Virus record (IMG/VR): IMGVR_UViG_3300046011_004076
Location: 1 to 22,190 of that record
DNA from: a virus
Strand: one strand, 5' to 3'
Length of the DNA stretch: 22,190 bases
Both the position numbers and the translations under genes were made by a program. Below are positions 3,351-19,311 of the stretch, one piece after another; positions within the stretch are counted from its first letter, which is position 1; each line of letters starts with the position of its first letter. A model generated the notes under the pieces. The model ran no database searches and was not told the origin of the DNA. It saw only the letters and a program-made list of their open reading frames with translations.

Positions 3351-5046
3351 TGATTTCCTCAATCATCGGTTTAACATCTGTAATTTCAATATCTGAAACT
3401 CTATCATACGAACCATTCTTAGTGACGTAGATTCTTTCAGGTACAGCTAATTGTTGCACATAATATAACGCTTCGTCAACTGATTTAGGAAAGTATCCTG
3501 CGCATCTTTTATACCACCAACTCATCCCAATACCTTTAGCTCTGCCTTCAAAGGTAACGTATTCTGTCACGGTTAAATAACCTGTGTGATAAGTTACTTT
3601 TAAGCTAGTGTTACCAGACTTTTTAGAATAATGTGACGCATAACTCACGTTAGTCACATCTAACCAAGTATTAGAAGATTGTCGCACAATATCTGTTCTA
3701 GGTTTAGTAGCGATGACTTCTTTTTCGCTTGCGGTGTGGGTGATTTTGACTTGTACTGGAAACTCTTTTCCACAACAAGGACATTCGCGTACAGTAGGGT
3801 GTGAAATAGTACCACATACATCACAGGTTCTAACTGGAGCTGTTCCAGACCCGCCTTCTTTTTTCTTTTTAGGTATCACTGGTTCGTTCACACAACCTAA
3901 CCTCGATACCGTACCTGCGAAATCCAAACACAATGCTCCTTTAGGTTTAGAACCTGCTGCAATTGCAGATAATCGTCCTTCTTTGGTTGTTAAATCAAAA
4001 CCTTTTGCATACACAGGTCTTGTTAATCGTCCGTAACGCTGAATATATCTTGACGTAGAAGTAGTTGGAGCTAAGTCAATCAACATATCTAATTGTGGGA
4101 TATTAGTTCCTGTTGACAACACCATCATATTCACGGCGCATCTGTACTTCATATCCTTAAAATCTTGAATAGCTTTATCTCTTTCTTCGTCACTCATTTT
4201 AGAATGAATCGCCACACTAGGTATGTTAAATTCATTATTAAGCATATCTGTTATGTGAATAACGTGTTCAATAGAGGTAGCAAAACAAATCCAACTTAAT
4301 CTATCTTTCCCATATACTACGGCTTCTCTCAACGCTTCTCTAGTTACCTCAATCTTATCTACCGCTTCAGCTAATTGTTTTTGATTGTAATCTCCTGCTG
4401 TGATTTTAACATTAGATACATCTAATTGTGTCACGGTTTTTTTGCTGGTAAGATTTGCTAAATAACCTTCCTCAATAAACCAATTAAACCATTCAAAACT
4501 CGTTAAATCGATAGAAAAACCATTGAAAATAGGGTGATTTTCGGTAATTAGACCGTGACCCAACCTGTAGCAAGTTGCTGATAACCCTACCACCTTTAGA
4601 TATTTATTTCTTTCTTCCAATCGTCTAATAAACTTAACATAGGTAGTTTCTTCTTTTGCATCGCATGAGTGCGCTTCATCTACAATAACTAAATCAATTT
4701 TACCTAAAATATCTGGTTTATTACAAATACTACCGATACCTGCAAATGTAATTTGACCAATATCTTTAGAACCTAAGCCTGCTGAATAAATTGCAGTAGG
4801 TGCAGTTTTCCATAATTTTAAAAGTTCATCGTGGTCTTGTTGTACCAACTCTTTTACATGGCTTACAACTAAAATTCTCAGTCTTGGAAAATCAAACAGT
4901 AGTTTCTTTATTAAACCAGCTATACATCCTGCTTTACCTGTACCTGTTGGAGCTGCAATAACTGGATTCCCTAACCCTGCTCTAAGGTATTTTAAGGTTT
5001 CGTCGATAGCTAGAACTTGATAATCTCGTAATATGTATTCAGACAT
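3334..5046 (-). CDS. Superfamily 2 DEAH-box helicase with C-terminal zinc finger
   Basis: A 570-residue SF2 helicase, probably acting in replication, recombination or branch migration. Motifs in order: LRDYQ (6-10), a Walker A loop APTGTGK (32-38), DEAH (123-126), SAT (156-158), and a C-terminal RecA-like lobe with STGTNIPQLDMLI and motif VI QRYGRLTRP. About residues 407-428 hold CDVCG...CPCCG, a four-cysteine zinc ribbon. The Walker A lysine is followed by Ala (GKA), where helicases normally have Thr or Ser to bind magnesium; this is unusual. An HNH gene overlaps the start by 8 bases, and I see no clear Shine-Dalgarno before this ATG. It resembles UvsW-like or generic phage helicases; the exact role is open. 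Confidence 0.9.
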   Translation of the reverse strand: MSEYILRDYQVLAIDETLKYLRAGLGNPVIAAPTGTGKAGCIAGLIKKLLFDFPRLRILVVSHVKELVQQDHDELLKLWKTAPTAIYSAGLGSKDIGQITFAGIGSICNKPDILGKIDLVIVDEAHSCDAKEETTYVKFIRRLEERNKYLKVVGLSATCYRLGHGLITENHPIFNGFSIDLTSFEWFNWFIEEGYLANLTSKKTVTQLDVSNVKITAGDYNQKQLAEAVDKIEVTREALREAVVYGKDRLSWICFATSIEHVIHITDMLNNEFNIPSVAIHSKMSDEERDKAIQDFKDMKYRCAVNMMVLSTGTNIPQLDMLIDLAPTTSTSRYIQRYGRLTRPVYAKGFDLTTKEGRLSAIAAGSKPKGALCLDFAGTVSRLGCVNEPVIPKKKKEGGSGTAPVRTCDVCGTISHPTVRECPCCGKEFPVQVKITHTASEKEVIATKPRTDIVRQSSNTWLDVTNVSYASHYSKKSGNTSLKVTYHTGYLTVTEYVTFEGRAKGIGMSWWYKRCAGYFPKSVDEALYYVQQLAVPERIYVTKNGSYDRVSDIEITDVKPMIEEINENND

Positions 5047-5599
5047 TATTAGTACCGTAATTAGTAAATTCTTTATGAAATGATTCTCTAGCTAACATTA
5101 CCGCTTCTGCTGCTTGCTCTTTTGTTTTAAATCTACCTATCCTATATTGTTTTCTATTAAACCCTATAGATGCGTTCCATAAACCATACCATTTATCAAA
5201 AGAAACTCCTTTATAACCAGATGTATTATTTTTATTCAACCCTACGTTATATTGATTCTGTGCATTATTTGCTTCTCTCAAGTTTTCAAAACGATTGTCC
5301 AACTTATCACCATTTATATGGTCGATTTGGTCAGTAGGGTCGCTACCAGTAACCAATTTCCATACAATTCTATGATTTCTATAAGATTTTAAATTTATAA
5401 TTACACTCAAGTATCTACCTCCGCTAACACTACCTGCTACTGTATTAGCCATACGAGCATTCATTATCTTCATCATGCGGTTGGTTTTAAAATGACTTAA
5501 AGGTCTTTCTTTCCAGTATAGACTTCCAGTTATTTCATCGTAATTGAAACATTCTTTTAGATATTCTTGACTTGGTAATTCAATGTATTTTTGAGCCAT
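5039..5599 (-). CDS. HNH homing endonuclease with AP2 DNA-binding domain
   Basis: A 186-residue, probably selfish, site-specific endonuclease. The N-terminal section carries ITGSLYWKERPLSHF; the HNH core (about 76-110) reads NHRIVWKLVTG and then IDHINGDKLDNRFENLR. The AP2/ERF-like domain (about 125-172) reads NTSGYKGVSFDKWYGLWNAS and then FKTKEQAAEA. Its N-terminus is closely similar to that of the double HNH-AP2 protein at 7181-8284 (28 of 34 aligned residues identical). It lies between a terminator and the helicase, overlapping the helicase start by 8 bases, as expected for a mobile insertion. GAGG sits 12 bases before the ATG, a rather long spacing. Confidence 0.93.
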   Translation of the reverse strand: MAQKYIELPSQEYLKECFNYDEITGSLYWKERPLSHFKTNRMMKIMNARMANTVAGSVSGGRYLSVIINLKSYRNHRIVWKLVTGSDPTDQIDHINGDKLDNRFENLREANNAQNQYNVGLNKNNTSGYKGVSFDKWYGLWNASIGFNRKQYRIGRFKTKEQAAEAVMLARESFHKEFTNYGTNNV

Positions 5600-6937: not shown

Positions 6938-7200
6938 TTCAAATCCTCCAATTTAAACCATTGACCTGCGTCACCTTCATGTAACCCAGCTAACTTATAG
7001 TGTCTAACAGCATGGAAGTCAACCTTTGTATTATTCACACAATAATACCATGTGTTAGCGTGTAATGACGCAATCCAGTTGTAACCTTCTGGTGCAACAT
7101 TCGCTTTGTGTTGTAAGAAGTGTAATAGGCTTTCGTTCATAATAATACCCCATTTAGCACAACCGTTCATTGCGTTTTCTTTATCTAATAAGTTTTTCAT
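6934..7200 (-). CDS. Hypothetical protein (88 aa), start uncertain
   Basis: Read from the ATG at 7200 (GAGG nine bases upstream) the protein has 88 residues, MKNLLDKENAMNGCAKWGII and onward. A second in-frame ATG at 7140 (MNESLLHFLQHK) has its own GGGG site eight bases upstream and would give 68 residues. The region after 7140 (VAPEGYNWIASLHANTWYYC, then HAVRHYKLAGLHEGDAGQWF) looks like the compact core. The first start overlaps the double HNH gene by 20 bases, so the insertion of that gene may have created the longer form. Function unknown. Confidence 0.65.
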   Translation of the reverse strand: MKNLLDKENAMNGCAKWGIIMNESLLHFLQHKANVAPEGYNWIASLHANTWYYCVNNTKVDFHAVRHYKLAGLHEGDAGQWFKLEDLK

Positions 7201-8284
7201 TATATCGTTCCTCAAGTTTAATTCTTCTAGCTCTAACCGCTTCGTCTAGTGTGTCGAAAGTTCCAAATCGAATGTTCTTACCATCAATTCTTAGTGAAGA
7301 TGTGTATTTGCCGTTATCAGCAATTCCTATTCCTGTTGCACCAGAAGTATTGTTACATGAAATTTTTTTATTAACCCCGTTTTCAATTCTAGTTGCTAAT
7401 TTTAGGTTATCTATTAAGTTATTACTAGAATTACCGTCACGGTGGTCTATTACATAATCGTCTGGTAACTTTTCAATAGAGTAGCACATCTGATAAATTA
7501 TTCTATGCGCTAAATACTTTTTATTAAAAAGTTCAAACCTAATATATCCGCCAGAAGTTTTACCACCAACTATAGTCCCAGCATATTTCGAGTTAAAACA
7601 TTTTATACTGCGGTCAGTTAAACCTAATAATCCAAATTCTCTCTCTTTCCAAATTAAATTACCATTATCGTAATATAATAATTTGTTTAAGTTAGACAAT
7701 GTAGCATCAAATGAAGTGATGTTTTTTATACTATTCCAGCCTGCTGATGATATAGTATTATTAGCGAATTCGTATTCAAAAAGGTCTCGTTTTTCTAAAG
7801 CAACATTTACATCATCGAATAAACCTACATAGTATTGAACCTTACTCTTTGTTATAGTAACCACATACTTACCACTTCTTTTACATACATGGATATTCTT
7901 ATAACCAGTGGAATTATTAGAAGGTTTTCTTTTGTTTTGCTGATTTGTATTAACATCAACATCTCTAAGATTATTGATTTTATTGTTACTTTTGTTGTTA
8001 TCTATATGGTCTATCATACCGACAGGTTCTTTACCAGTTACTATTTTCCATATAATTCTATGAAGAACATAACTAACACTGTCAATAGACACGCTAAGGT
8101 ATCCTGTATTTATAACCGTGCCAACTTTTTTATTAGCAAATTTTGAATTTCTCATGTTAGCAAAACCTTCATTCGCAAAATGAGATAAAGGACGCTCTTT
8201 CCAAATTAAATCCCCTGTTATTTCGTTATAATCAAAACATTCTTTCAAAAACTCTTGACTTGGTAATTCTTTATATTTACTCAT
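7181..8284 (-). CDS. Tandem double HNH-AP2 endonuclease
   Basis: A 367-residue protein made of two homing-endonuclease units in series. Unit 1: ITGDLIWKERPLSHF (about 22-36), HNH core with LHRIIWK and IDHIDNNKSNNKINNLR (74-107), AP2-like NSTGYKNIHVCKRSGKYVV (about 124-170). Unit 2: LLYYDNGNLIWKERE (202-216), HNH core with AHRIIYQ and IDHRDGNSSNNLIDNLK (259-297), AP2-like NTSGATGIGI to LDEAV (about 311-350). Usual HNH-AP2 proteins have one unit of 150-200 residues. Unit 1 is close to the HNH-AP2 gene at 5039-5599. It overlaps the nuclease gene upstream by 4 bases and the gene downstream by 20. Both units retain the His and Asn pattern. Confidence 0.92.
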   Translation of the reverse strand: MSKYKELPSQEFLKECFDYNEITGDLIWKERPLSHFANEGFANMRNSKFANKKVGTVINTGYLSVSIDSVSYVLHRIIWKIVTGKEPVGMIDHIDNNKSNNKINNLRDVDVNTNQQNKRKPSNNSTGYKNIHVCKRSGKYVVTITKSKVQYYVGLFDDVNVALEKRDLFEYEFANNTISSAGWNSIKNITSFDATLSNLNKLLYYDNGNLIWKEREFGLLGLTDRSIKCFNSKYAGTIVGGKTSGGYIRFELFNKKYLAHRIIYQMCYSIEKLPDDYVIDHRDGNSSNNLIDNLKLATRIENGVNKKISCNNTSGATGIGIADNGKYTSSLRIDGKNIRFGTFDTLDEAVRARRIKLEERYNEKLIR

Positions 8285-10123: not shown

Positions 10124-10216
10124 TTTTGACTCCTTTTATCAGTTAGGGAAGTTCGATTATCGAATTAAAAGTAGCAACAGGTGATAAGTCTGCTTTCAGG
10201 AGCTACCCTAGCTACA
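10124..10216 (-). promoter_or_regulatory. Structured 5' leader of the zinc-ribbon HNH gene
   Basis: About 90 bases between the inferred transcription start and the HNH ATG. Read on the minus strand it contains AGCTAGGGTAGCT, an almost continuous inverted repeat TTCGAT-A-ATCGAA, and GACTTATC, which can pair with GATAA and GTC on either side of the Shine-Dalgarno (GATAAAAGGAGTC). The last pairing would place AAGGA in a bulge and could limit translation. It is a plausible leader fold, but short complements arise by chance and I could not compute its energy. Confidence 0.35.
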
Positions 10217-10222
10217 AGTGAT

Positions 10223-10251
10223 ATTATTTCATACTATCTATAAACAGTCAA
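10223..10251 (-). promoter_or_regulatory. Sigma70 promoter upstream of the zinc-ribbon HNH gene
   Basis: Minus-strand -35 TTGACT (10246-10251), spacer of 17, -10 AATAAT (10223-10228), matching consensus at 5 of 6 in each box. It is in the 139-base gap before the HNH gene and would also serve the nuclease gene and those after it. Confidence 0.65.
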
Positions 10252-10262
10252 ACTTAAAACAT

Positions 10263-10765: not shown

Positions 10766-11449
10766 TTATTCAGCGTCAGGTGTGAGCCAATCTGGACTTT
10801 CACCAGAATCAACTGCAAGAGGTTTAGGCGGAGCTTTAGGAGCTACAGGTGGAGCTGTAGGAGCTTTTGGAGCAGAAGGTGGTGTATTAGGCGCGGTTGC
10901 ACTAACCGAACCGCCTTGACCCTGTAATGATGCTTTAAACGCAACACCTGCTGGCGAACTTAATGTGTCGTTAGACGATACAGGTTCTAAATCTTCACCT
11001 GATACCGTAGAAGCTAACGAATAAATACCTTTAATTTCTGTTGCAACCGTAGCAATTAAACCACCATCGTTAGCTCTAAATGAATCTAATTTGTGGTCAG
11101 TACGCAATTTAAATGGAATACCTTTCAATTCGTCTAACGAAGTTTGTGGTGTTTTACCAGTAGCTTCGATATACGCTTTCAAACGTGATTTACCAATACG
11201 AACAGCAACTTCGTTTTTATTGATAAGCGTTGGATAATCCATAATCGTCATATCTTTGTAACGACCTTCGACTACTTTCAGTTCAATGTGCTGAACTAAC
11301 GAATCGGGGTCGCTTTTACCCGCTTTCAATTCAGTTTTTGAAATCACGACTTTAAACACACCTTTAGGGAACTTTTCTTTAGCTTCACCTTGTGCAGCGA
11401 CATTGTTCCATTCGTTTGTTTTCGCCATATCTGCATAAAAACTTGTCAT
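10766..11449 (-). CDS. SSB-like phage protein (DUF669 type)
   Basis: A 227-residue protein that probably binds single-stranded DNA and partners the Sak4-like ATPase encoded about 2 kb upstream. Residues about 25-120 match the DUF669 pattern (KGVFKVVISKTELKAGK, ELKVVEGRYKDMTIMDYPTL, NKNEVAVRIGKSRLKAYIEA, LKGIPFKL). A Pro/Ala-rich linker (about 186-215) leads to an acidic tail (SGESPDWLTPDAE), the layout by which SSBs recruit partners. Sak4 proteins are known to be stimulated by their cognate phage SSB, so the pairing fits. The ATG has GGAGAGTTAAG upstream. The gene is followed by a good terminator. DUF669 identity is from pattern recognition; direct DNA binding is inferred. Confidence 0.75.
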   Translation of the reverse strand: MTSFYADMAKTNEWNNVAAQGEAKEKFPKGVFKVVISKTELKAGKSDPDSLVQHIELKVVEGRYKDMTIMDYPTLINKNEVAVRIGKSRLKAYIEATGKTPQTSLDELKGIPFKLRTDHKLDSFRANDGGLIATVATEIKGIYSLASTVSGEDLEPVSSNDTLSSPAGVAFKASLQGQGGSVSATAPNTPPSAPKAPTAPPVAPKAPPKPLAVDSGESPDWLTPDAE

Positions 11450-15674: not shown

Positions 15675-16555
15675 ACATCATCACTCATTCTTCTACCTTT
15701 AAAAACGGGAAATCTTGGAGTTTCCCCTATCATACCTACTTTGAAGTATTTATAGGTCACGATAATGTTATAATAAGAATCTCGATTGTCCCAAATTTCA
15801 TGACGTTGAACATCATTGAAACCAGAACCAATGCTGAACTCAACTCCTGACACACTATCTCGCACAAGAATAGCTCCTAGTGTACCTGTTGGAACTAATC
15901 CGTCTTTACTTGTACTTCTAGCTGTTGCACCAACTTCGTTTTTGAATGCTAGATTCTGATTTGACATTTTTTCTTCAAATCCAATGATTATAGCTTCAGC
16001 ATCAGAAAATCTTTTGAGTTTCATTAAATAACCTTCTTTGATGGTACTCCTACCTTGCTTGTATCCATCTTTATAACGTACCATAATTCCTTCATAACCA
16101 CCTTTTAAGGAGCGTTCTTCAAAATCTAATAGCTCGGATAAGGTTTCGCAAGTTTCTTTGTGTACGGTCTTAATTTCAGTGTTAGTGAAAGCCAAAGTGC
16201 TAATACAGCAAAGTTTATCTTTACGACTTAAATTGTCACCTAGTATATCGAAAACATAAAAGGTTACATTGTCAGCAGAACCTTTTATCGTCATCACTTG
16301 ACTCGTAGTCACGTTAAATACATCTGTCGCATTAGGTTGACCTACAATTAACTCACCATCCAAACCGTTGAATTCAGGCTTACCGAATTTATTTTGAATC
16401 TCTAGGTTTGGAATAGCTTTCATTGACCTGCTATAACAAACTGAATCAATCACAATCATGCGAACTCCGTCTAACTTTAGACTTACTTCACATGGAAATC
16501 TAACCTCTTTCTCAACATCTTTAATTGTAGCCGCTAACATCGGTTTGAAGCTCAC
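15671..16555 (-). CDS. ATP-dependent DNA ligase
   Basis: A 294-residue ligase that seals nicks in duplex DNA using ATP. The nucleotidyltransferase motifs are in order: I, KLDGVR with the lysine nucleophile K27; III, LDGEL (65-69); IIIa, FYVFDILGD (99-107); IV, EGIMVR (155-160); V, LMKLK (177-181). A C-terminal part rich in strands (about 190-294, with GTLGAILVRD and FPVFKGRRM) fits the OB fold. The start is GTG at 16555, with TAGG six bases upstream and a 4-base overlap with the gene before; the protein then opens FKPMLAA, as phage ligases do. It is short, a minimal type. It probably joins Okazaki fragments or recombination nicks. Confidence 0.93.
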   Translation of the reverse strand: MSFKPMLAATIKDVEKEVRFPCEVSLKLDGVRMIVIDSVCYSRSMKAIPNLEIQNKFGKPEFNGLDGELIVGQPNATDVFNVTTSQVMTIKGSADNVTFYVFDILGDNLSRKDKLCCISTLAFTNTEIKTVHKETCETLSELLDFEERSLKGGYEGIMVRYKDGYKQGRSTIKEGYLMKLKRFSDAEAIIIGFEEKMSNQNLAFKNEVGATARSTSKDGLVPTGTLGAILVRDSVSGVEFSIGSGFNDVQRHEIWDNRDSYYNIIVTYKYFKVGMIGETPRFPVFKGRRMSDDV

Positions 16556-16869
16556 AATAAACCTACCTTAATTACTTGTTGTGCCATCGTTAAATACAAA
16601 CCTTTGTGCGAATCAGGTCGTTTGTTGAATCTTTCTTTGCTAGGTACATAGTTAGAGAAATCAAAATCCAATATGAATTGGACATCTGTGATATTAAAAA
16701 CTAACGTATGAACGGTTTTATATTTAACCTTACCGATTGATGCAATCTGTTTAGAACGAATCTTAGCTGCGATAGTAGCGTTTAAACCACCTGTTCTATC
16801 AACCAATTCCACTAAGCTAATTGCACCTTCTGGAATGAAAGGTATAACTGGAACTTCACGTCTGCTCAT
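16552..16869 (-). CDS. Hypothetical protein (105 aa)
   Basis: A 105-residue protein starting MSRREVPVIPFIPEGAISLV. The segment VELVDRTGGLNATIAAKIRS followed by KQIASIGKVKY could be a helix-turn-helix, but the match is weak. It ends with a basic stretch (SKERFNKRPDSHKGLYLTMA). GGAGAATAAA precedes the ATG. The stop overlaps the ligase GTG by 4 bases, so the ligase is probably made by coupled translation. Function unknown. Confidence 0.65.
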   Translation of the reverse strand: MSRREVPVIPFIPEGAISLVELVDRTGGLNATIAAKIRSKQIASIGKVKYKTVHTLVFNITDVQFILDFDFSNYVPSKERFNKRPDSHKGLYLTMAQQVIKVGLL

Positions 16870-16870
16870 T

Positions 16871-17215
16871 TTATTCTCCGAAAAAATCTTTTACTTTATT
16901 GAAAAATGCGGTTCTTGATTCAACTGATGCTCCTAAATCGTACTCTAACTGTTGACCTTGTTCAAAATCAATGTAGTTGTAATGGTGTAGTACCTCATTA
17001 ACACTTAGAACGCTAATCTTACCGTTATCACTCACAATATACTGACCTAGCCGAATACTGTACGAGTGATTAAGGCAACCTACGATTAACTCGTTATCTT
17101 TCCATTCAAGATAACCACTATTTCCAACAACTTCTATAACATCTAAGGTATTTGAACCTTCAAAACGTACACATTTAATAACAGGTTGTACTTTTCTTTC
17201 TAAATCGATAATCAT
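16871..17215 (-). CDS. Hypothetical beta-rich protein (114 aa)
   Basis: A 114-residue protein starting MIIDLERKVQPVIKCVRFEG. The stretch ELIVGCLNHSYSIRLGQYIV followed by SDNGKISVLSVNEVLHHYNY resembles a family of small phage proteins whose core reads '...GD(Y/W)I....G....(P/V)....F...Y'. The resemblance is partial. The ATG has AAGGAAC upstream, and a terminator separates it from the gene before. Function unknown. Confidence 0.65.
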   Translation of the reverse strand: MIIDLERKVQPVIKCVRFEGSNTLDVIEVVGNSGYLEWKDNELIVGCLNHSYSIRLGQYIVSDNGKISVLSVNEVLHHYNYIDFEQGQQLEYDLGASVESRTAFFNKVKDFFGE

Positions 17216-17227
17216 TGTCTTGTTCCT

Positions 17228-17259
17228 TAAAAAGATGAACGGTAGATTTCCTACCGTTC
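17228..17259 (-). terminator. Rho-independent terminator
   Basis: On the minus strand GAACGGTAG and CTACCGTTC (9 bp, perfect, 17251-17259 with 17237-17245) enclose the loop GAAAT and are followed by ATCTTTTT. It lies 17 bases after the stop of the gene at 17276-17575 and is the cleanest terminator in the window. Confidence 0.85.
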
Positions 17260-17275
17260 GAGGTAGGAGGAGCTT

Positions 17276-17575
17276 CTAAACTAATTTAACTGTGAATACA
17301 TAAGTTGCGAGTTCTTGAATCAATCTGCACGCTTGCATCTGTTCCATTGTGCGTTTAGGTGCAATGAGTTCTCTAGTTGCACATTCGCAGTATCTAGCCC
17401 AAATCATTCTAACATCTACATGACCTTGCACTGGGCATTGTTTGTGAACATTACGTCTAACAGCAGGTACGATATCTAATGCCGCTTCGCGCATTTCAAT
17501 TAAGCGAGTGAACTCGATGTTGCGACCTGATTTCAAAGAATCGATGTTTTCTTGGATTTGAATCTGTGTGTTCAT
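17276..17575 (-). CDS. Hypothetical protein (99 aa)
   Basis: A 99-residue helical protein starting MNTQIQIQENIDSLKSGRNI. It contains KQCPVQGHVDVRMIWARYCE and CATRELIAPKRT; the cysteines and a histidine (KQC, GHV, YCEC) might bind a metal, but the spacing matches no motif I know. AGGAGATTTACAA precedes the ATG, a leader nearly identical to that of the next gene upstream. It ends just before a strong terminator. Confidence 0.7.
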   Translation of the reverse strand: MNTQIQIQENIDSLKSGRNIEFTRLIEMREAALDIVPAVRRNVHKQCPVQGHVDVRMIWARYCECATRELIAPKRTMEQMQACRLIQELATYVFTVKLV

Positions 17576-17586
17576 TTGTAAATCTC

Positions 17587-18006
17587 CTATTTATTGATCA
17601 AAGTATTTATAAAATTGTCAAACTCAATGTCTAATTCATTCGATACTATCAAATTTAAGATGTATTTTTGTGAATGTTCATTTAACCATGTTGATAACAT
17701 TTCAGACCATTCTAATTTTGTTCTGTACCATTTGCGAAGCTGAAAAACCGAACTTTTTAAACCTGTAATATACTCAGTTTTCTTTTTTTCAATATCTAGT
17801 TCATTAGCAGATACAGTATAAAAAAGGTATCCTTCTTCAAAAGAATAATTTTCACATGATGAAATGATTTTAATTAAATCGTCCTTAGTTATTGAATTAG
17901 GGTCTATATCATGTCCAATTGTGAAACCAATTGGTTTTTTCAACAATTTTTCATAATGTTCAAACCACTCAATCATATCTAAGAAAGATGCGTTTATCGT
18001 AGCCAT
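17587..18006 (-). CDS. Hypothetical protein (139 aa)
   Basis: A 139-residue protein starting MATINASFLDMIEWFEHYEK, largely helical with a charged basic middle (LDIEKKKTEYITGLKSSVFQ) and an acidic helical end (ELDIEFDNFINTLINK). AGGAGATTTACA precedes the ATG. It is the first gene after the promoter at 18057-18085 and follows the structured non-coding region. No family recognised. Confidence 0.7.
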   Translation of the reverse strand: MATINASFLDMIEWFEHYEKLLKKPIGFTIGHDIDPNSITKDDLIKIISSCENYSFEEGYLFYTVSANELDIEKKKTEYITGLKSSVFQLRKWYRTKLEWSEMLSTWLNEHSQKYILNLIVSNELDIEFDNFINTLINK

Positions 18007-18056
18007 TGTAAATCTCCTAAATGTTAAAACCGACTGAGAAATTCAGAAGGTGGTTT

Positions 18057-18085
18057 ATAGTAAATGATGTTTTGCGATAAGTCAA
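18057..18085 (-). promoter_or_regulatory. Sigma70 promoter downstream of the clamp gene
   Basis: Minus-strand -35 TTGACT (18080-18085, 5 of 6), spacer of 17, -10 TACTAT (18057-18062, 4 of 6). An AT-only inverted repeat ends at the first base of the -35 box and could act as an UP element. It would start the mRNA of the 139-residue gene and those following. Confidence 0.65.
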
Positions 18086-18124
18086 ATTATTTTAAATATA
18101 TTTTTCAATATATTTAAAATAATT
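18085..18124 (-). repeat. Perfect 18-bp A/T inverted repeat with a four-base loop
   Basis: 18085-18102 and 18107-18124 are exact reverse complements made only of A and T. The four-base loop reads GAAA on the minus strand, a GNRA-type tetraloop if transcribed. It lies directly upstream of a -35 box, and no T run follows, so it is not an ordinary terminator. Candidate roles are UP element, easily melted origin element, or an RNA end. Confidence 0.85.
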
Positions 18125-18132
18125 CAAACTTC

Positions 18133-18164
18133 ACCTACTACTGCACCAATTCACAGTAGTAGGT
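18133..18164 (-). repeat. Perfect 11-bp inverted repeat (hairpin)
   Basis: ACCTACTACTG and CAGTAGTAGGT (18133-18143 with 18154-18164) enclose a 10-base loop. On the minus strand the loop contains GAATTGGT, exactly complementary to ACCAATTC at 18191-18198. No T run follows on either strand. Confidence 0.8.
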
Positions 18165-18282
18165 TCTATAAGGCTTGGTCATCACGCTAGGAATTGGTAG
18201 TTATTAACCAACGTGAACGCGACCCAAACTGCACACTGTTATTTCCAATGATACTCCCACCTGTGTGCTGGGGAGCTAAATT
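18165..18282 (-). ncRNA. Candidate structured RNA or 3' UTR downstream of the clamp gene
   Basis: No gene is visible in these 118 bases on the minus strand. Nested complements stack as one arm: GGTC with GACC (18221-18224, 18177-18180), TCACG with CGTGA (18212-18216, 18182-18186) and TTGGT with ACCAA (18207-18211, 18194-18198). Nearer the clamp stop, GCTCCC with GGGAGT (18271-18276, 18253-18258, one G-U) and GCACAC with GTGTGC (18263-18268, 18231-18236) interleave as an H-type pseudoknot would. I infer an RNA element or a structured 3' UTR; a replication origin is the main alternative. The pairings are seen; that they form is not proven. Confidence 0.4.
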
Positions 18283-19311
18283 TTATAATCGCATCGCCAT
18301 GACGACTGATGTGTATTTGTTTGAACCGATTTCTGTTTCAGAAATAACACAACTCGCGTCAGCCGCAAGTGTGAAGGTAGTTGTTTCGTTAGTTGGTCGT
18401 TTCAGTAAGTTTATCAAATACTCGTAACCAAATCCAACTTCAATAGGTTTTGATGATGTCATAGACAACCCACACAATAGGTTGTTGTCGATAAATAACG
18501 CAACTTTACCATCGGCTTCAGAGTATAAACTAATACCTTTTGTTTCAGTCAGCAATGGTTTAATTCCGTTTAACTGCGTTAAACTCTCTTTCACGTTGAT
18601 TTTCAAGCCAACATCGAATGGTTGTGTAAACACCTTACTGAAGTCAGGATATTTTGAATCATGCGTTTTAGCATAAATTTCTACATCATCAACCACAAAC
18701 TTAACCCACGCAGGTCTGTTTTCGTCATCCGATTCATAAGACCAGATGTCGATTGTACTTGAAGGTTTTAATGATTTCAATAATTCGATGCTACTGCGAT
18801 TTAAGATATACGAACCATCTGTAAACACTGTGTTTACTTCAACATCATTCACACTTAATGTGTGACCGTTACTTGCGGCAGATTCGATTCTGTTGGTTTG
18901 TTTATCGAAAGATAGTTTTAATCCATTCAAGTAATATCTTACATCGTTCTTCGCCATCCATTTTTCAGAATCAGTTAGCGTAGCTGCTAACTGATTCGGT
19001 GTTAGTGACGCGAGTAGCTTATCACAGTTTGGTAGACCGTTGATAACCACGTCTAATTTAGATTCAGTTGAGTACGTTAAAGGAACTTGATTGTGGTAAT
19101 AAATTCCCTCATCCGCATGCAAACCGTCTAAGTTAGTTTTATACATCCCACAAAACTGTGTTGAATCAAAGATGCCTAATTGCTGGAAATCAACTTTACC
19201 GATTACGACTGAATCTAAATCAGTCGCGTAGATACGACCATCTTTGATTTCAATAATTTTAGATTCTTTACGTTTACTTGCTGATTTTAATGCTGCTAGT
19301 AGTGTTTTCAT
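18283..19311 (-). CDS. dnaN: DNA polymerase sliding clamp (beta/DnaN-like)
   Basis: A 342-residue ring-clamp subunit that tethers polymerase to DNA; bacterial beta clamps are about 366 residues. Diagnostic pieces are DVRYYLNGL (123-131), SNGHTLSV (147-154, compare TDGHRLA), YPDF (221-224, compare FPDY) and the C-terminal TSVVMAMRL (334-342, compare YVVMPMRL). The three-domain clamp length is kept. GGAGAATAACC precedes the ATG. The gene lies in a unit that starts at the promoter near 20115, after several small genes. A phage copy could replace the host clamp for the phage polymerase. Overall similarity to bacterial DnaN is low outside these motifs. Confidence 0.85.
   Translation of the reverse strand: MKTLLAALKSASKRKESKIIEIKDGRIYATDLDSVVIGKVDFQQLGIFDSTQFCGMYKTNLDGLHADEGIYYHNQVPLTYSTESKLDVVINGLPNCDKLLASLTPNQLAATLTDSEKWMAKNDVRYYLNGLKLSFDKQTNRIESAASNGHTLSVNDVEVNTVFTDGSYILNRSSIELLKSLKPSSTIDIWSYESDDENRPAWVKFVVDDVEIYAKTHDSKYPDFSKVFTQPFDVGLKINVKESLTQLNGIKPLLTETKGISLYSEADGKVALFIDNNLLCGLSMTSSKPIEVGFGYEYLINLLKRPTNETTTFTLAADASCVISETEIGSNKYTSVVMAMRL

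Follow-up and report, generated by a model that had tools for sequence, protein, structure and literature searches.

A conserved structured RNA directly after the sliding clamp gene of an uncultured tailed phage and of a relative

The fragment IMGVR_UViG_3300046011_004076 (22.2 kb), from an uncultured tailed phage, was analysed over its whole length of 22,190 nucleotides (hereafter the window). Every plausible gene of the window is carried by the minus strand, among them a sliding clamp gene (PHROG 947 match, E 9.5e-20; Pfam PF02767; PDB beta clamps, E to 1e-8). The window also encodes an RNR small subunit, thymidylate synthase, a helicase, HNH endonucleases, a Cas4-type exonuclease, endonuclease VII, a single-strand binding protein (SSB), Sak4 and a DNA ligase. 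The two HNH endonuclease genes (5039-5599 and 7181-8284) belong to the same domain family, the second carrying the domain twice, and HNH gene relatives occupy the same place, adjoining the helicase gene, in two related records (G004 and G013). The RNR small subunit (356-1345) is 86-91% identical to those of other IMG/VR contigs (L008-L011) while the other genes shared with such contigs (e.g. G003) are much less alike, which suggests that the RNR gene has been exchanged between phages.

Directly 3' of the clamp stop codon, 276 bases (18007-18282) are left open, the longest gap of the window; the second longest (139 bases, 10124-10262) lies 3' of the endonuclease VII gene. Read along the minus strand, the order is clamp gene, pseudoknot, arm, 11-bp hairpin, A/T hairpin, promoter-like site and next gene (Table 1).

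Table 1. Features in and around the gap that follows the clamp gene, in window positions.
Feature	Position	Strand	Details
Sliding clamp gene	18283..19311	-	342 aa, beta-clamp type; stop TAA 18285-18283
Conserved structured RNA core	18173..18276	-	104 nt; pseudoknot, unpaired A and three-part arm
H-type pseudoknot	18231..18276	-	S1 and S2, with paired changes in G013
S1	18276-18271/18258-18253	-	GCUCCC/GGGAGU
S2	18268-18263/18236-18231	-	GCACAC/GUGUGC
Pseudoknot loops	18252-18237 (third loop)	-	CA between S1 and S2; 18252-18237 contains GGAAAUAACA
Three-part arm	18173..18229	-	P3 18229-18224/18178-18173; P4 18223-18216/18188-18181; P5 18212-18207/18198-18193
3' GA bulge of arm	18180-18179	-	
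UCCU bulge of arm	18189..18192	-	Flanked: UUCCUAG, complementary to clamp Shine-Dalgarno CUAGGA
P6 hairpin	18133..18164	-	Perfect 11 bp (18133-18143/18154-18164), 8 nt 3' of arm; loop GAAUUGGU
A/T inverted repeat	18085..18124		Perfect 18 bp (18085-18102/18107-18124); 4-base loop, GAAA on minus strand
Promoter-like site	18057..18085	-	TTGACT-17-TACTAT, 9/12 consensus matches; overlaps end of A/T hairpin
First gene of putative cassette	17587..18006	-	139 aa, no family match; 27% GC (A+T-rich)
Second gene of putative cassette	17276..17575	-	99 aa, no family match; ribosome-binding sequence same as first
Intrinsic terminator (predicted)	17237..17259	-	10-pair stem, then ATCTTTTTAA

An earlier reading of this DNA, made from its letters only (the sequence-only reading), had described the gap as a single highly structured region with a perfect 18-bp A/T repeat, a perfect 11-bp repeat, a nested three-part arm and an interleaved stem pair. 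Each of these elements was recovered, the arm and the interleaved pair on the minus strand, where the latter takes the form of an H-type pseudoknot, and no T run follows the structure, as had been noted. Compared with shuffled controls, the gap folded with z=-6.3 on the minus strand (0/200 shuffles as good) and z=-4.4 on the plus strand, and the most stable 120-nt stretch of the entire window was 18131-18250 (-43.6, against a mean of -20.2 and sd of 5.5). No perfect hairpin of the window is longer than the 18-bp one; 20 Markov simulations gave no more than 11 bp. The strongest plus-strand fold of the window lies elsewhere, antisense inside the SSB gene (10821-10960, +; -42 kcal/mol per 120 nt).

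The first part of the window RNA reads GCUCCC CA GCACAC AGGU GGGAGU AUCAUUGGAAAUAACA GUGUGC A and the arm GUUUGG GUCGCGUU CAC GUUGGU UAAUAACU ACCAAU UCCU AGCGUGAU GA CCAAGC. Folded alone, the arm had a minimum energy of -20.7 (z -3.7), and for the pseudoknot region nested alternative folds have similar predicted energy. The RNA unit probably extends through the P6 hairpin, down to 18133.

Single-sequence protein scans with the clamp and the ligase returned no relatives, close clamp relatives being absent from the searched collections. An RNR alignment scan led to related phages, one of them with a clamp 32% identical, and the resulting two-row clamp alignment identified the contig IMGVR 3300048672_000292 (L052; whole record G013). 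G013 shares the gene order of the window, with identities of 69% (RNR), 52% (Cas4), 48% (helicase), 40% (SSB), 37% (Sak4) and 28% (clamp). Its clamp gene is also trailed by a gap, and this gap contains the same RNA, again 3' of the clamp, with a first part CUAACC CA GCACG AAUGU GGUUAG CAUAGGAAGAAACAG CGUGC A and an arm UUAAGU GUUGUGA UUCUGAAU UAU AUUCAGAA CACCUU UCACAAU GA ACUUAA. Both pseudoknots have the loop CA, a third loop ending in GGAANNAACAG and then one unpaired A; both arms have a 6-bp basal stem, a 3' GA bulge, a middle stem of 7-8 bp, a 3' bulge containing CCU and an apical hairpin. Folded alone, the G013 arm (-15.1, z -4.5) took the same layout as that of the window, GA bulge included.

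Compensatory changes, as looked for in any conserved structured RNA, were found in this relative. In alignment A8 of the two sequences, 16 of 34 pairs are altered on both sides yet still paired and 95.5% of pair cells are kept, compared with 33-42% paired when the partners were slid by 1-3 columns as a control. Double changes that keep pairing affect 4/6 pairs of S1 and 1/6 of S2. Base conservation is highest in the pseudoknot loops and S2, while S1, P3 and P4 vary freely. RNAalifold on A8 returned S1 and the arm with 15 double changes, pseudoknots being outside what the program can draw. Alignment A8 was adjusted manually, N serving as spacer, and leans towards the structure (the plain MAFFT alignments A3 and A7 misplace S1); a covariance model built from the window sequence alone was therefore taken as the unbiased test of likeness. 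This model found the G013 copy with 43.2 bits (E 1.5e-7), the next match in 540 kb of phage sequence reaching 17.1 bits. Furthermore, none of 5000 shuffles of the G013 gap reached the observed likeness of the pseudoknot loops to those of the window. Fold, strand, position 3' of the clamp and conservation in a second phage are thus borne out by comparison of the two sequences, and the stretch 18276-18173 (minus strand) is very probably a conserved functional RNA. Lytic phage genomes are packed, and that a conserved RNA of 105 bases has stayed where it is, next to a clamp that has diverged to 28% identity, points to a function worth its space.

A replication origin adjoining the clamp gene had also been proposed in the sequence-only reading, and inverted repeats with an A/T-rich palindrome beside a replication gene would be in keeping with such a DNA element, be it an origin or another single-strand DNA structure. 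This part of the earlier proposal fared poorly. Neither the iterons (direct repeats) nor the skew switch of a replication origin was found in the window, where GC skew is negative throughout; a constant skew is weak evidence in a fragment of 22 kb whose genes all share a strand. Six pairs of the window RNA are G-U (one of these also in G013) and would become A.C mismatches on the opposite strand; the RNA core folded better than shuffles in the sense direction (z -2.6) and not in antisense (z only -0.35). Conserved loops in an H-type pseudoknot are characteristic of RNA, and the A/T palindrome is absent from G013. Because of the G-U pairs and the strand-specific energy, an RNA read in the clamp direction is favoured over a DNA cruciform or origin, which we regard as extremely improbable.

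The gap appears to combine two distinct things, the conserved RNA (18276-18173, minus strand) and the front of a cassette, so that the idea of one structure built from four repeats held for the pseudoknot and the arm, which form one conserved unit, but not for the A/T hairpin, which goes with the promoter-like site. Both of these are absent from the corresponding G013 gap, and what BLAST matched to the A/T hairpin in other phages was dismissed as simple A/T likeness. Since the A/T hairpin, the promoter-like site, two genes and a terminator intervene in the window and not in G013, we read them as a separate two-gene, moron-like cassette (18124-17237) headed by the hairpin and the promoter-like site. 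The terminator at 17259-17237 is the sole terminator-like site in 16500-17400 (0.4 expected); promoter-like sites in the window as a whole (9, against 8.4 in shuffles) are not above chance. With two genomes compared, a gain in the window and a loss in G013 are equally compatible with the data. Morons of lambdoid phages consist of a promoter-like site, small genes and a terminator between conserved genes; the putative cassette differs in that its genes have no family match and its insertion is judged from one relative. The split of the gap illustrates how a conserved RNA and an inserted cassette are easily mistaken for one structure.

The identical sequence TAGGAGATTTACA(A)ATG stands before both the 139-aa gene (18007-18023) and the 99-aa gene (17576-17592), which suggests a recent duplication or a start signal shared within the cassette. 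A 114-aa gene (16871-17215), beyond the terminator, is likewise extra relative to G013. In G013 the RNA is followed by no relative of the 139-aa gene. There, the RNA and the hairpin following it are succeeded by a 113-aa gene (L160 12251-12592) resembling the window gene 16552-16869 (E 9e-5), which comes after the cassette in the window and right after the RNA in G013. The two genes, of about 105-113 aa and 25% identical, share a helix-turn-helix-like region.

Members of the RNA were found in two places only, the window and G013. The covariance model returned no third member from related phage loci, unrelated viral loci, 27 records, clamp-bearing phages or 200 Pseudomonadota genomes. A pattern of the shared bases, searched over 2.9 million viral and 11.3 million genome contigs, hit the true site once and 45 other places, all of them inside long open reading frames that run through the match, and without the pairing. 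The off-target share was 3 of 4 matches for viral contigs, all 42 for genome contigs and 21 of 22 with a looser pattern; as the pattern was drawn after both copies were known, these counts bound the chance rate and are not an independent test. Two kinds of candidate were set aside as chance: one sequence present in three contigs (L148/L155/L157) as a 101-codon open frame, where S1 can form and S2 cannot, and a match in L188 (15.9 to 17 bits) that lacks S2. No such RNA was found in G003 and G041, which have related clamps (about 32%), and the clamp therefore does not need the RNA. In a clade of contigs (L161-L172) sharing the order of the Sak4, SSB, Cas4 exonuclease, helicase and RNR genes, no recognisable clamp was present in the examined records; these phages may use another clamp or carry one beyond the fragments.

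Rfam 15 gave 0 matches at the gathering threshold in the window and, at E 10, chance-like sub-threshold matches in the window and none in G013; no tRNA was found. No report of such an element was found in the open-licence literature. A Type III antitoxin (ToxI-like) was rejected in the absence of tandem repeats.

The pseudoknot starts 7 nt past the clamp stop codon in the window and 27 nt past it in G013, and no promoter of the RNA's own is evident in the window; for these reasons we infer that the RNA is probably made as the 3' UTR of the clamp mRNA or processed from the clamp transcript. A terminator of its own is not evident in the window either, a point against this account. The gene 3' of the RNA differs between the two phages, leaving the clamp as their common neighbour. 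Of the proposals in the sequence-only reading, a small RNA or a structured 3' UTR fared better than an origin: covariation among relatives and folding energy beyond that of shuffles, whose lack would have spoken against both, were found, and the sequence is compatible with either. Conserved RNA and 3'-UTR origin taken jointly, with any step in translation left aside, make a combination that we consider somewhat probable. With a pseudoknot 7 nt behind the clamp stop, programmed frameshifting or read-through there was considered, and rejected given the 27-nt spacing in G013, where moreover the frame past the stop closes after six codons.

A rival explanation is a plain structured 3' end, either a 3' exonuclease barrier or an atypical terminator, with no regulatory role. 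The place directly after the stop codon, the stable arm and P6 hairpin, and the TCTTTT that comes after P6 in G013 are all in its favour. However, P6 has no T run in the window, no intrinsic terminator site (G+C-rich hairpin and T run) was found at the RNA in either phage, and a simple barrier would not need conserved loop sequences; we regard this explanation as unlikely. More improbable still is that the RNA serves the downstream genes as a cis-acting leader, whether attenuator or riboswitch-like. In G013 the helix-turn-helix-like gene comes directly after the RNA with no promoter-like site between, and P3 or P5 pairing might face competition from the hairpin that follows the arm, yet the two phages do not share the gene 3' of the RNA, and the one in the window has its own promoter-like site and ribosome-binding site.

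If the RNA is indeed the 3' end of the clamp transcript, arising by read-through or processing of the clamp mRNA, it may act on the clamp's own translation, a step that we put forward tentatively and judge less likely than not. The bulge of the arm would serve as an anti-Shine-Dalgarno, pairing with the ribosome-binding site of the clamp itself either in cis, within one mRNA, or in trans, once the RNA has been processed; clamp synthesis would thereby be limited or timed, with the pseudoknot as a platform for protein binding or for protection from 3' exonucleases. In the window UCCUAG of the bulge matches CUAGGA of the clamp, and in G013 ACCUUU matches AAAGGU, so that the matching bases co-vary. 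The clamp start region ties for the best bulge match of 47 in the window and of 54 in G013, where two and three other start regions, respectively, match equally well. Taken jointly, the clamp matches would arise by chance with a probability of about 0.005, for a likeness noticed post hoc, and any CCU bulge is partly complementary to Shine-Dalgarno sequences; as a sign of clamp control the match is suggestive only.

The equally good matches elsewhere would also fit a phage small RNA that is cut from the clamp mRNA and acts in trans, on host or other phage mRNAs or on a host defence or RNA-binding protein, rather than on the clamp. Patchy presence among relatives fits such an accessory function, and there is a precedent in the lambda small RNA PreS, which acts on host dnaN (PMC12197685); against it, the sole location of the RNA in both phages adjoins the clamp. 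This alternative appears possible but doubtful. A new class of self-cleaving ribozyme, or another catalytic or ligand-binding RNA, with the conserved S2 and loop region CAGCAC...GGAANNAACAG.GUGCA as its active site, seems very improbable. Conserved bases concentrate in the pseudoknot loops and S2 with S1, P3 and P4 free, as in ribozymes and riboswitches, and pistol-like ribozymes are common in phage DNA (PMC4604425), but no Rfam ribozyme matched even at E 10, the stem arrangement is unlike pistol, and with two sequences only, catalytic and merely conserved bases are indistinguishable. The likeness to pistol lies in a hairpin loop that pairs with a downstream strand, followed by a further stem (PMC4604425). 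Pistol is built of P1, P2 and P3 with a pseudoknot linking the P1 loop to the P2/P3 junction; its enclosing P2 and its ten conserved bases were not found in the clamp RNA. No pistol match appeared even at E 10, and by eye no P2 pairing of the loop after S1 with the sequence after the arm was seen.

Among known systems the clamp RNA appears thematically like the gp32, RegA and PreS controls, from which it differs in place, size and sequence, and it belongs to no Rfam family. In T4, replication genes are under translational control, by gp32 through a leader pseudoknot and by RegA on genes 44 and 45 (PMC3014915). The gene 32 leader of T4, T2 and RB69 resembles the present case as an H-type pseudoknot on the mRNA of a phage replication gene, with autocontrol there and proposed here; that pseudoknot sits ahead of the start codon and is a binding site for the protein of its own gene (PMC3014915). 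The clamp RNA, in contrast, lies 3' of the stop codon, is larger, has a bulged arm and shows no sequence relation to it, and where the T4-type element is a pseudoknot upstream of the start with an unstructured A/U-rich ribosome-binding region, the element here is downstream of the clamp stop in both phages. RegA represses T4 and RB69 clamp and clamp-loader mRNAs at the ribosome-binding site (PMC3014915), the same theme as here; it is a protein repressor, whereas an RNA is proposed for the clamp. PreS is likewise a phage small RNA tied to a sliding-clamp mRNA, there host dnaN, but it targets the host clamp, is Hfq-dependent and lies in a different place (PMC12197685). We know of no such pseudoknot in PreS. 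Should the RNA control the clamp, it would stand as an RNA equivalent of the T4 protein RegA and a 3'-UTR form of phage autocontrol. As a new RNA family, it supplies a seed model for searching other phage genomes.

Lastly, the P6 loop GAAUUGGU (18144-18153) is complementary over 8 nt to ACCAAUUC (18193-18206), in the P5 3' strand and bulge. In G013 a 7-bp hairpin begins 9 nt after the arm, and its loop also matches the P5 3' strand (UCUGAAU/AUUCAGA, L160 12588-12566; 7-8 nt); the chance of such complementarity is about 3-6% in each phage. Pairing of the P6 loop with P5 could possibly make a two-state switch. The fullest form of the proposal, a new phage RNA family in which a 3'-UTR pseudoknot with a bulged arm reaches the clamp ribosome-binding site as RNA-only feedback while the loop of a second hairpin displaces the top of the arm, is quite unlikely to hold in every part. 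In G013 (L160 12610-12551), the 3' strand of the basal stem, ACUUAA, is predicted to be able to pair alternatively with a downstream UUAAGU, enclosing the next hairpin.
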